Assembly: GCF_014202895.1 (NCBI RefSeq)
Contig: NZ_JACHHV010000014.1
Span: 1 to 42,800, forward strand
From: Lactovum miscens
GTDB lineage: Bacteria > Bacillota > Bacilli > Lactobacillales > Streptococcaceae
Direction of reading: 5' to 3'
DNA: 42,800 nt
This document shows positions 30,309-33,842 of this stretch, piece by piece; within the stretch, counting starts at the first letter, position 1, and each line of letters starts with the position of its first letter. The translations under genes were made by a program, and so were the position numbers. The notes under the pieces were generated by a model. That model saw only the letters and a program-made list of their open reading frames with translations. It was not told the origin of the DNA and searched no databases.

Positions 30309-30373
30309 ATTAAATAAAGTATATTAAAAAATTCAGGTTTCAAGCCTGAATTTTTTAATATACTTTATTTAAT
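30309..30373. terminator. Bidirectional terminator between lysS and apbE
   Basis: A perfect 29-bp inverted repeat (30309-30337 and 30345-30373) encloses the seven-base loop TTTCAAG. The top is CAGG/CCTG next to six A or T residues, so both strands give a stem with a U run. The right arm includes the last six codons and stop of apbE. Confidence 0.92.
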
Positions 30374-31329
30374 ATTTCTTTAATATAATATTCAGAATCT
30401 GTAATTTGAATATTATTTTCGTCAAAATTAAGCAATGTAATGGATTTATCTCTATAAGCAATGATAGCTGGAAATTTATACTGATTCGGTATCGCATCAG
30501 CAAAGAAAAGTCGAGTAGTTTCAACCTCTCCATCAATTGATTCGTCAGTCAAAACAGTGACGCTTGCAATATTGTTATCATGAGGATAGCCAGTTTCTGG
30601 ATCAATAATATGGTGATAACTTTTTCCTTCTTGAGTAAATGCTCGTTCAGAAATTCCAGATGTCACAACTGAACCTGCTCCACTTTTAATGACAGCTATT
30701 GTCTCCTTCGTAGATCTCAACGGATCCCTAATCCCCACTCGCCATTTTAAATCTGGTTGATGAGGTGCATTACCCACTAACAGAAGATTTCCACCAAGAT
30801 TTATGATACCTGATTGAATAGACCGTGATTTCCATAAATCAGCAACTCGATCAGCAATGTATCCCTTAGCAATTGCTCCCAAATCAAGCTCCATTCCATC
30901 TTCCTTGAGAAAAATCGTCTGATTAATTGGATTGAGTTCGATATTTACCGGGTTGGTAAGCTGTAATTTTTCAATTATCTCAGATTTACTAGGAACTCTA
31001 GCATCCTTGAAACCAATGTGCCATAGCTTTACCAATGGACCAATGGTAGCATTAAAACCAAAATGTTCTAAGCTTTTTTCAATAGCTTTTTTCACTAGTA
31101 CAAACGTTGCTAGGCTGACCTGCACAGGTTCGATACCAGCCTTATCGCTAATTGAAAGCACTTCAGAAGTCTCTCGATTTACGGTAAAAATCTTTTCATA
31201 GTACTGAATAAGTTCATTGCTTTCATCCAGTAGTTCTTTATCTTGACTTCCAAAAATCGTTAAATTAATAACTGTTCCCAGTCCTCGATAGTTCTTTGTA
31301 ATCTTTGAATGACCAAGTTCTGTGATCAT
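30355..31329 (-). CDS. apbE: FAD:protein FMN transferase (ApbE family), cytoplasmic
   Basis: ApbE attaches FMN covalently to Thr or Ser of target flavoproteins. The 324-residue protein has DLGAIAKGYIADRVAD (about residues 153-168), IINLGGN and VVTSGISERAF, with HHIIDPETGYP near 245-255; these are the family's FAD and Mg sites. There is no signal peptide or lipobox, unlike exported ApbE, so it should act in the cytoplasm. It starts two bases after the FMN reductase gene. Its target may be a cytoplasmic fumarate- or urocanate-reductase-like protein encoded elsewhere. Confidence 0.92.
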   Translation of the reverse strand: MITELGHSKITKNYRGLGTVINLTIFGSQDKELLDESNELIQYYEKIFTVNRETSEVLSISDKAGIEPVQVSLATFVLVKKAIEKSLEHFGFNATIGPLVKLWHIGFKDARVPSKSEIIEKLQLTNPVNIELNPINQTIFLKEDGMELDLGAIAKGYIADRVADLWKSRSIQSGIINLGGNLLLVGNAPHQPDLKWRVGIRDPLRSTKETIAVIKSGAGSVVTSGISERAFTQEGKSYHHIIDPETGYPHDNNIASVTVLTDESIDGEVETTRLFFADAIPNQYKFPAIIAYRDKSITLLNFDENNIQITDSEYYIKEILNKVY

Positions 31330-31331
31330 CT

Positions 31332-32084
31332 TTACTCATCTGCACTTTCCATTGCGTCTAAAGCCCACGCTAACTCTTCTTCTATATTTAATCGATTGGC
31401 TTCTAATTCATCATCTACTTCATCATCTACTGAAGCACCAGTGTCTGCGTCAATTTGGCTAAAATCTTCAATGGTCCAGACTTTATTCTCAGATTTATCG
31501 CTAGAATTGCTACTTTTTAACTTTTCTTCTTGATTTGATATAGGTTTGATAATATTTACATAAGAGATAAAAGCAGTGAAACAATGTTCGAGCCATGTAA
31601 TTGTTCGCTCATCAATCAGGTTCCCATTTATATCAAATGCCTTTGCAGCATTTCCCAGTAAAAATTGATTTCCTGGAAGCACAAAGGAATTAAGACCTGG
31701 ACTAGACAAAATTTGTCGAAGGTTTTCTTGAGCAAAAACAGTACCCATATTTCCTAATGATGCTCCCACAATCATGACTGGTCTATTAGTTAGAGGATGG
31801 AACTCCCCCCAGCTCAACCATTCAATGGTTGATTTCAAAGCTGCTGAAATTGAGTGATCATACTCGGGGGTTGAAAAGATGATACCATCAGAAATTTCAA
31901 TAATTTGAATTAAATCATTGACACGTTTTGGTACTTCAACGGCATCTTCAATGAACATGGGAATATCTGAAATTTCTTGAATTTCAATATTTGCCTGAGT
32001 TCCAAAATGCTTTTTCATAAACCACAAGAGTTTTCGGTTGTATGAAAAACTCGCATTGGTGCCAACGAGGGCGATAAAGTTCAT
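31332..32084 (-). CDS. NADPH-dependent FMN reductase family protein
   Basis: This 250-residue flavodoxin-fold protein begins FIALVGTNASFSYNR, has STPEYDHSISAALKSTIEWL (about 95-115) and PVMIVGASLGNMGT, all typical of NADPH-dependent FMN or azo reductases. Residues 190-250 form an additional, highly acidic tail with no clear fold. AAGGAG precedes the ATG. It lies two bases upstream of apbE in the same operon, which suggests it supplies reduced flavin or acts as an electron donor for an ApbE-modified protein. This link is inference. Confidence 0.87.
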   Translation of the reverse strand: MNFIALVGTNASFSYNRKLLWFMKKHFGTQANIEIQEISDIPMFIEDAVEVPKRVNDLIQIIEISDGIIFSTPEYDHSISAALKSTIEWLSWGEFHPLTNRPVMIVGASLGNMGTVFAQENLRQILSSPGLNSFVLPGNQFLLGNAAKAFDINGNLIDERTITWLEHCFTAFISYVNIIKPISNQEEKLKSSNSSDKSENKVWTIEDFSQIDADTGASVDDEVDDELEANRLNIEEELAWALDAMESADE

Positions 32085-32122: not shown

Positions 32123-33580
32123 CTAATCTTTATGTCTTGATAAGTCTACATCTTCAAGGGGAATAATTTTTGTGTTGTACTTCCATTTATAGCTGAAATA
32201 CAAAATAATAAAGATAGGAAAGGCGGCATAAGTCGCCAACGCTTGGCCCCATTGGGCACTGAAAAGTTGTGCTGGGTCAAGATTGACCATAATGGCTAAG
32301 GTCATTAATAACGCTAAAATTGGGCCAATTGGAAACCATTTAGCCTTATATGGTAAATCATTCAAATCTTTATTTTGTACCATATAAGCGCGACGGAAAC
32401 GAATATGACTAAAGGAAATACCTACCCAGGCTAAGAAACCAGTTAGGCTTGATAAGTCAACTAGAAAGATATAAATTTGAGTTCCAAAAATTCCTGTCAA
32501 AAAGGCCAGAACACAGATTATTGAAGTCAGAATCAAGGCATTAATAGGGATTCCGTTTTTTGCAACTTTACCAAAGATGTTTGGGGCTCCTTTTCCTTTA
32601 CCCAATGAGTAAAGCATACGCGTTGAAGCATACATAACCGAATTGGCTGATGATATCACTGAAGTCAGAATAACAGCATTCATAACAGAAGCAGCCAGGG
32701 CAAAACCGATATTTTTAAATACAATAGTAAATGGGCTCATGACGGCTGTTGAATTTGGGTTGAGCAAACGTGAGTCCTTATAATTAATAATAGCTGCAAT
32801 TACGATAATTGTCAAAATATAAAAGAGCAGTATACGCCAAAAGATTGAATTCATGGCCTTAGGAATTGATTTTTCAGGATTCTCCGACTCACCTGCAGTA
32901 ACACCCAATAATTCCGTCCCTTGAAAAGAAAAACCAGCAATCAGAAGCACTCCAACGAAGCCATAAACTCCACCAATAAAGCCATGATTCCCTGCTGTCA
33001 GATTTCCAACCACATTTACATTACCTTGACCTAGAATACCAAAAATAGTCAGCACACCTATTGCCACAAAGAGAGTGATGGCAACTACCTTAATCATGGC
33101 AAGCCAGTATTCAGTCTCACCAAAAGCTCCAACCGCTAAGACATTGATAATAAAAATCAAAATCGTTGCGACACCTGAGAATATCCAGGCTGGGATGTGA
33201 GGAAACCAGAACTGAGTAATTAATCCAACCGTTGTCAAATCAACGGCAATCGTAATCGCTCCATTAATCCAGTAGTTCCAAGTTAAGGCGAAACCAAAAG
33301 CGGGATCTACGTAACGTGAACCATAATCGCCAAACGAACCCGTTGTCGGTAAATAAGTTGCCATTTCTCCCAAAGAGGTCATGACAAAGTAAACCATTAT
33401 GCCAATGAAAACGTACGCAGATACCGCTCCCAAAGGACCAGCTTGTGAGATAGTTGCACCTGAAGTTAAGAAAAGTCCTGTTCCGATCGTCCCACCGAGT
33501 GCAATCATTGTAATATGACGTTGTTTCAGATTTCTTTTTATCTGATTATTGTTTTGATTATTTAATTCTAGATTTTCCAT
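32123..33580 (-). CDS. Amino-acid permease, AAT/APC family, probable histidine permease
   Basis: This 485-residue, 12-helix protein belongs to the amino acid transporter family. Helix 1 has MIALGGTIGTGLF, followed by MTSLGEMATYLPTTGSF. It is close in character to lactococcal LysP and HisP. The leader RNA has a peptide with four His codons among its last six residues, which points to histidine as substrate. The ATG is preceded by only a weak AAGAAAG. The gene follows the leader terminator by about 45 bases. The family is certain; the substrate rests on the leader. Confidence 0.9.
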   Translation of the reverse strand: MENLELNNQNNNQIKRNLKQRHITMIALGGTIGTGLFLTSGATISQAGPLGAVSAYVFIGIMVYFVMTSLGEMATYLPTTGSFGDYGSRYVDPAFGFALTWNYWINGAITIAVDLTTVGLITQFWFPHIPAWIFSGVATILIFIINVLAVGAFGETEYWLAMIKVVAITLFVAIGVLTIFGILGQGNVNVVGNLTAGNHGFIGGVYGFVGVLLIAGFSFQGTELLGVTAGESENPEKSIPKAMNSIFWRILLFYILTIIVIAAIINYKDSRLLNPNSTAVMSPFTIVFKNIGFALAASVMNAVILTSVISSANSVMYASTRMLYSLGKGKGAPNIFGKVAKNGIPINALILTSIICVLAFLTGIFGTQIYIFLVDLSSLTGFLAWVGISFSHIRFRRAYMVQNKDLNDLPYKAKWFPIGPILALLMTLAIMVNLDPAQLFSAQWGQALATYAAFPIFIILYFSYKWKYNTKIIPLEDVDLSRHKD

Positions 33581-33620: not shown

Positions 33621-33807
33621 TAAACAAAAGACCAATTAGTCTTCACTAACCGGTCTTTTTTAGAATCACCGGCATAGATAGCAACAGCAAAGCTGCATCT
33701 ATACCTTCGTCAGACACAACTCATTATCTATGCAAATGATGGTGTTGAATAAACATGTGATTCTTCCTTTCTTTAGTTAAAGTCATATGTATAATACAAC
33801 TTAATTC
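33621..33807 (-). promoter_or_regulatory. Histidine-type attenuator leader of the permease gene
   Basis: The 190-base leader contains a short His-rich reading frame and competing stems. The terminator is AGACCGGTTAGT-GAAG-ACTAATTGGTCT (33629-33656) with TTTTGTTT. A CCGGT (33668-33672) can pair with ACCGG of the terminator's first arm (33650-33654). A hairpin spans 33671-33705. The leader's last codons GCATAGATA (33725-33733) can pair instead with TATCTATGC (33672-33680), and AGAATCAC at the ribosome binding site (33757-33764) with GTGATTCT (33662-33669). No T-box motif is present. The pattern suggests that ribosome position on His codons decides termination. Confidence 0.75.
33724..33756 (-). 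CDS. Leader peptide MFIQHHHLHR
   Basis: Ten codons followed by TAA and TGA encode MFIQHHHLHR. The His codons are CAC, CAT, CAT and, after Leu, CAT. AGGAAG lies about eight bases before the ATG. Its 3' codons form one arm of an RNA stem. It begins about 50 bases after the predicted transcription start and ends about 70 bases before the terminator. Its density of histidine codons is far above expectation and fits a sensor of charged tRNA-His; the peptide itself probably has no function. Confidence 0.78.
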   Translation of the reverse strand: MFIQHHHLHR

Positions 33808-33813
33808 TGTTTA

Positions 33814-33842
33814 ATTATACATAACCCTTTGTCATTATGCAA
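33814..33842 (-). promoter_or_regulatory. Promoter of the permease leader
   Basis: TTGCAT (33837-33842), 17 bases and TATAAT (33814-33819). The sequence ATGTATAAT is mirrored 18 bases away by ATTATACAT, so a plus-strand TATAAT (33790-33795) faces it and may help transcribe the cyclophilin gene. Confidence 0.75.

Follow-up and report, generated by a model that had tools for sequence, protein, structure and literature searches.

A very probable histidine-sensing attenuator upstream of a LysP-type permease in Lactovum miscens and its codon-swappable relatives

On the minus strand of the Lactovum miscens DNA analysed here (a stretch of 42,800 nucleotides, hereafter the window), a leader frame, a set of competing helices and a terminator are located at 33756-33622, upstream of a gene for a LysP-type amino-acid permease. 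This element is very probably a transcription attenuator in which a translating ribosome senses charged tRNA-His, a reading that rests on its parts, their conservation, compensatory changes, the fixed position of the sensor codons and energetic consistency. Almost as firmly, we regard the Rfam trpB motif (RF04312) not as a riboswitch but as the 3' half of a codon-swappable family of ribosome-mediated attenuators of the Lactobacillales. In this family one scaffold is re-targeted to His, Trp or Phe/Tyr via codons -6 to -2 and has been transferred among transporter genes and operons for biosynthesis, and the window would hold a histidine version.

Histidine uptake in lactococci would thereby gain a specific, testable regulator, and an orphan riboswitch candidate with more than 900 published representatives would receive a concrete mechanism. 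The family offers a natural series in which one attenuator scaffold is re-targeted through codon exchange, and it implies that ribosome and RNA polymerase are closely coupled on such leaders, in a phylum that is known more for its T-boxes.

Results

Anatomy of the leader

The features of the element are collected in Table 1. The leader frame starts with an ATG at 33756 and ends with a TAA (33726-33724), then a TGA; the fourth His codon, after the three sensor codons, is a CAT at 33732-33730. The initial annotation had described a Shine-Dalgarno (SD) sequence, the ten-codon frame MFIQHHHLHR, the two stop codons, hairpins and an intrinsic terminator, and all of these can be read on the minus strand. 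It had also called the promoter good. The -10 box is indeed perfect and relatives carry TTGCAA-17-TATA.. at the corresponding position, i.e. the promoter is positionally conserved, but the -35 box is weak and a consensus scan did not include this promoter in its list.

The intrinsic terminator (33659-33626) is the sole terminator-like site of the region, compared with a mean of 0.1 in shuffled sequences. About 45 nt separate the end of its stem from the start codon of the permease (33580), which corrects an earlier distance of 120 bases. The 159-nt leader folds with -55.1 kcal/mol, against -31.1 kcal/mol for dinucleotide shuffles (z = -7.1). When the window was scanned with Rfam, no family reached its cut-off at the leader site, and the weak SpF25 and snoRNA matches that appear there in a low-threshold scan were taken as chance.

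Table 1. Features of the leader and the genes downstream of it. Coordinates are positions in the window.
Feature	Coordinates	Strand	Basis or remark
Promoter TTGCAT-17-TATAAT	33814..33842	-	-35 33842-33837, -10 33819-33814; read from sequence
SD of leader frame, AAGGAAG	33763..33769	-	sequence
SD-proximal segment AGAATCAC, partner of anti-SD	33757..33764	-	minimum free energy (MFE) fold and co-variation across 63 Streptococcaceae leaders
Leader peptide MFIQHHHLHR, including TAA	33724..33756	-	HHHxHR-stop kept in 20 distinct leaders
Sensor codons CAC CAT CAT (codons -6, -5, -4 before the stop)	33736..33744	-	position fixed in all members; modelled antiterminator maximum with A-site codons -6 to -3
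Segment A GCATAGAT, frame end, able to pair with D	33726..33733	-	complementarity; pairing lost once a ribosome covers codons -5 and later
Segment B AGTTGTGTC	33713..33721	-	B:C helix, covariation
Segment C GGTATAGATGCAGCTTT, partner of B or D	33689..33705	-	both fold sets; Rfam RF04312 alignment starts here
Segment D ATCTATGCCGGT, partner of C (predicted termination) or E (predicted read-through)	33668..33679	-	pairing, covariation, ribosome-mask folding
Anti-SD GTGATTCT	33662..33669	-	MFE fold, SD:anti-SD co-variation
Segment E GACCGGTTAG, terminator 5' arm	33646..33655	-	terminator prediction and both fold sets
Segment F CTAATTGGTC, terminator 3' arm and T tract	33622..33639	-	terminator prediction and E:F covariation
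LysP-type APC amino-acid permease, controlled gene	32123..33580	-	NCBIfam/PDB matches; lactococcal orthologues 77-85% identical
Two following genes: ArsH/NADPH-FMN-reductase-like; ApbE-like (flavin transferase)	30355..32084	-	order shared with L002 and L004

Two mutually exclusive folds

The segments can form either B:C together with D:E (antitermination) or C:D together with E:F (termination), and the two fold sets are mutually exclusive. Across 20 distinct His leaders each set is 97.9% paired, compared with 29-42% when it is slid by 1-3 columns. Six pairs per fold set are changed on both sides, a number reached by none of 500 shuffles; this control ignores relatedness. For example, one leader (L135) has CTGGT:ACCAG in place of CCGGT:ACCGG. 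The latter pairing, between CCGGT at 33672-33668 and the first arm of the terminator, had been proposed from the window itself and is borne out, as is the proposal that the ribosome binding region pairs with a downstream segment.

This second pairing is an extra helix, in which the SD-proximal segment of the leader pairs with an anti-SD lying between D and E. Among 63 distinct Streptococcaceae leaders the native SD:anti-SD combinations have a mean of -10.3 kcal/mol, against -7.5 kcal/mol for swapped ones (0 of 5000 permutations, relatedness uncorrected). Pooled over all Lactobacillales the swap test is weak, with a median rank of 0.34, and Streptococcaceae are the only group in which the pairing stands out clearly.

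Proposed mechanism and ribosome-mask folding

While RNA polymerase transcribes the leader, a ribosome would begin to translate MFIQHHHLHR. With ample charged tRNA-His it would reach the stop codon and cover B, so that C:D could form, and SD:anti-SD as well once the SD is free; with C:D formed, the E:F terminator would end transcription. When charged tRNA-His is scarce, we infer that translation halts while one of the His codons -6, -5 and -4 occupies the A site, a position in which the ribosome would cover A and leave B free. B:C would then pair, the free D would take E, and D:E would block the terminator, letting the permease operon be transcribed. If the leader is not translated, SD:anti-SD and C:D would likewise lead to termination. 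The stalling of ribosomes on the CAC CAT CAT codons and the resulting read-through had been put forward in the initial annotation, and our results support this interpretation.

To follow the pairing of D with E, the ribosome footprint was masked in nascent transcripts ending at segment E, and these were folded at equilibrium, with transcription kinetics left out of the model. For the window leader, 6.7 D:E pairs are predicted with the first His codon in the A site, and 0.0 with the ribosome at the stop codon or with no ribosome. Among 21 His leaders, D:E is predicted in 20 when the ribosome is stalled and the SD occupied, and in a single one when it is at the stop codon and the SD is free; L135 shows no D:E in this model. 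The initial annotation had left undecided which fold terminates, and the modelling suggests that C:D with SD pairing and E:F terminates, while B:C with D:E reads through.

When the stall position is scanned, antiterminator pairing peaks with codons -6 to -3 in the A site, where the pairing of the leader with D is just lost and B:C still forms. The sensor codons of His, aromatic and Trp leaders alike sit at these peak positions, i.e. according to the model they are placed so that a stalled ribosome would cover A and free B. With the SD free, even stalling yields little D:E in most of the longer leaders (the window's excepted), and 16-17 of the 21 retain some D:E at the stop codon if the SD is occupied. 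The frequency of SD reloading should therefore matter, and the SD:anti-SD helix may provide a further gate.

Conservation of the histidine leader

We searched 335 Streptococcaceae genomes with a pattern, and also used a covariance model of the His leader. These searches show the leader in each of the 18 genomes examined from the main lactococcal genus (g6) and, within the window's genus, in the window genome (G000) and in G002, G003 and G004. The same leader is located upstream of the orthologous permease in L. cremoris, L. garvieae, L. petauri, L. formosensis, L. ileimucosae and L. nasutitermitis, and a divergent ppi gene adjoins it wherever checked in the genome set.

A translatable short frame with an SD and tandem His codons is found in 20 distinct leaders. 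The last six codons before the stop (-6 to -1) spell HHHxHR in almost every one of these peptides, one variant having a further His as fourth residue (HHHHHR), and the N-terminal half varies in length and sequence. The initial annotation had proposed comparing relatives, and had considered that the idea would fail if they kept the terminator but lost the frame or its His codons. No such relatives appeared in the comparison; the 20 leaders keep -HH(H)xHR-stop, and their stems carry compensatory changes. The Streptococcus matches to the His-codon pattern have a single mismatch, several of them lying within coding regions, and were not accepted as His leaders. A search of a plasmid collection with the leader gave no match.

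Controlled genes

Downstream of a block of ppi and leader that stays constant, either a LysP-type permease or an amino-acid ABC transporter is the controlled gene (L107-L126 and L135 versus L002 and L004-L006). In L002 and L004 the orthologous permease lacks a leader immediately upstream; it is placed after the ABC transporter genes and, in L004, follows a DapF-like gene. In such species the leader could reach the permease through a longer operon. In the window, the ArsH/NADPH-FMN-reductase-like and ApbE-like genes probably belong to the permease operon. A second copy of the leader, MILLSTLSHHHHLHR, is located upstream of hisC in one genome (G021), the sole hisC case.

Permease, amino-acid ABC transporter and hisC are all compatible with histidine. 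Since similar leaders precede the ABC transporter and hisC elsewhere, the permease is probably a histidine importer. HisB was not found in the window's genome, which is 99% complete; the organism is therefore probably a histidine auxotroph for which histidine uptake is probably essential.

Two observations concern other transporters. A divergent leader, MNNSILILVINHRHHR followed by a stop codon (L184, G030:C43:2452-2582), is located upstream of a YjeM-type APC transporter, which may be a further carrier of histidine. Paralogous lactococcal LysP permeases (L011-L013, L015-L017, L019, L020, L034) have an upstream region that, judged by eye, is lysine riboswitch-like.

A codon-swappable family and the trpB motif

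The covariance model of the His leader also retrieves lactococcal paralogues, which have the same scaffold with other codons at identical positions. A VFYFWRR-stop leader precedes an aromatic-type APC permease and a WQSW leader precedes a TrpX-like binding protein, and in the window's genus WQNW leaders are located directly upstream of a trpE-like gene (identified by eye). The frames of two leaders upstream of the trpE-like gene, MNKKTWQNWQR-stop (L354, G002:C69:657-771) and MKKNYWQNWRE-stop (L356, G003:C62:2396-2502), have their ATG about 7-12 nt past TATAAT and no SD, and may be leaderless leader peptides. Leaders of the YYYW type, SYYYWC(R/G)-stop (L168, L173), are found upstream of a GNAT acetyltransferase, which one would not expect as the target of a sensor for aromatic amino acids.

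The exchange of codons bears on whether the peptide itself could be the sensor. In an arrest peptide of the TnaC kind, high free histidine would stall the ribosome and turn the gene on; the anatomy would be identical, and the conserved xR-stop C-terminus could serve as the arrest element. We consider this improbable, as the N-terminus of the peptide is free to vary and the sensing codons switch identity with gene function at a constant position, as codon sensing predicts. Moreover, the controlled genes serve uptake and biosynthesis, functions that a cell has little reason to induce when the amino acid is in excess. A response to translation inhibitors or to a general slow-down of translation, as in mef/mel and bmrCD, would also dispense with histidine, and attenuation of resistance genes by the ribosome is known in streptococci and Bacillus (PMC4335068, PMC4191407). 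This is less likely again, given that the codons are amino-acid-specific and the downstream genes are amino-acid genes.

Narunsky et al. (2024) presented the trpB motif, with more than 900 representatives, as a strong candidate for a riboswitch; it is found most often upstream of an uncharacterised ABC transporter, and the authors were unable to rule out a classic attenuator (PMC11109978). The RF04312 model begins at segment C and thus omits the leader frame and segment B. The window scores 36.7 bits (E 9e-4, 301-base search) against a gathering cut-off of 59, i.e. it is not a formal member. However, the orthologous His leader of G025 (L116) passes the cut-off with 64.8 bits, and homology of the window leader to RF04312 is therefore supported. 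One lactococcal Trp leader matches with 64.5 bits.

We examined 127 RF04312 matches in genomes of Streptococcaceae and the rest of the Lactobacillales. In 118 of them a frame that follows an SD and contains sensor codons ends beside the motif, compared with 0.95 (maximum 2) in shuffles, a control that again ignores relatedness. Most of these frames read WQxW(R/H)R-stop and are located upstream of TrpX, others upstream of TrpB or TrpP, while frames with YYFSYF or FYF are found upstream of shikimate dehydrogenase (aroE), DAHP synthase and TrpX-like binding proteins. The nine matches without a qualifying frame include six low-scoring ones with no convincing leader (L276, L293, L301, L303, L304, L305), several seemingly intragenic, which were treated as false positives. 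RF04312 is nearly confined to Lactobacillales, with 4 of 398 genomes in a phylum-wide survey. One sub-threshold match outside this order (L320, G940:C31) has a possible leader, MNYINNFNLKIQIFFNNHFR followed by a stop codon, rich in Phe and Asn.

The published proposal of a ligand-binding riboswitch, in which the small frame would be incidental, retains a very small probability beside these frame counts. The sensor residue tracks gene function, and apart from the alternating helices nothing conserved resembles an aptamer core. The larger family, including the trpB motif, had escaped the initial annotation, and no paper revisiting the motif was found in a literature search that left subscription papers and supplements aside. 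Finally, the terminator does sit between divergent genes, but that it merely insulates the permease from upstream transcription, with the His run a product of chance, is hardly credible for a leader with its own promoter, a divergent ppi neighbour, and a conserved frame, codons and four helices.

Comparison with known systems

Firmicutes use T-boxes more often than leader peptides. The window genome has about ten T-box (RF00230) matches on other contigs, and T-boxes and the putative leader-peptide attenuator would coexist in it. By eye, the strongest of these T-boxes are located upstream of valS, a MetQ-like SBP, ileS, thrS, trpS, metE, serS and alaS. A His-specific T-box also senses a shortage of tRNA-His in Lactobacillales, whereas the sensor in the window would be the translating ribosome; as first annotated, there is no T-box at the site, and RF00230 is unmatched in the window.

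Attenuators of this kind are already known from His leader peptides in other Firmicutes, namely upstream of Bacillus hisZ/hisS* (PMC2965389) and in the B. cereus group, Peptostreptococcaceae and Erysipelotrichales (PMC9413887). These likewise combine a His-rich peptide with a terminator, but the lineages and genes differ, and lactococcal transporter leaders are absent from those reported in the main text of the two papers. What appears to be new is the version at lactococcal transporter genes, together with the family that swaps codons and the reinterpretation of the trpB motif. The Leu-rich ilv attenuator peptide of S. aureus (PMC5794164) and the mef/mel and bmrCD leaders (PMC4335068, PMC4191407) are also ribosome-mediated transcription attenuators of Firmicutes, with unrelated leaders and other signals.

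The his operon leader of enterobacteria (RF00514) shares the logic, i.e. tandem His codons and six segments that pair as B:C/D:E or C:D/E:F. It differs in that there is no sequence similarity or detectable homology, the window leader being unmatched by RF00514 at the gathering score and among matches up to E 1, and in that the window element controls a permease and adds the SD:anti-SD helix. With the trpB motif the likeness extends to the sequence itself, where the C:D hairpin and the terminator of the window align with RF04312.
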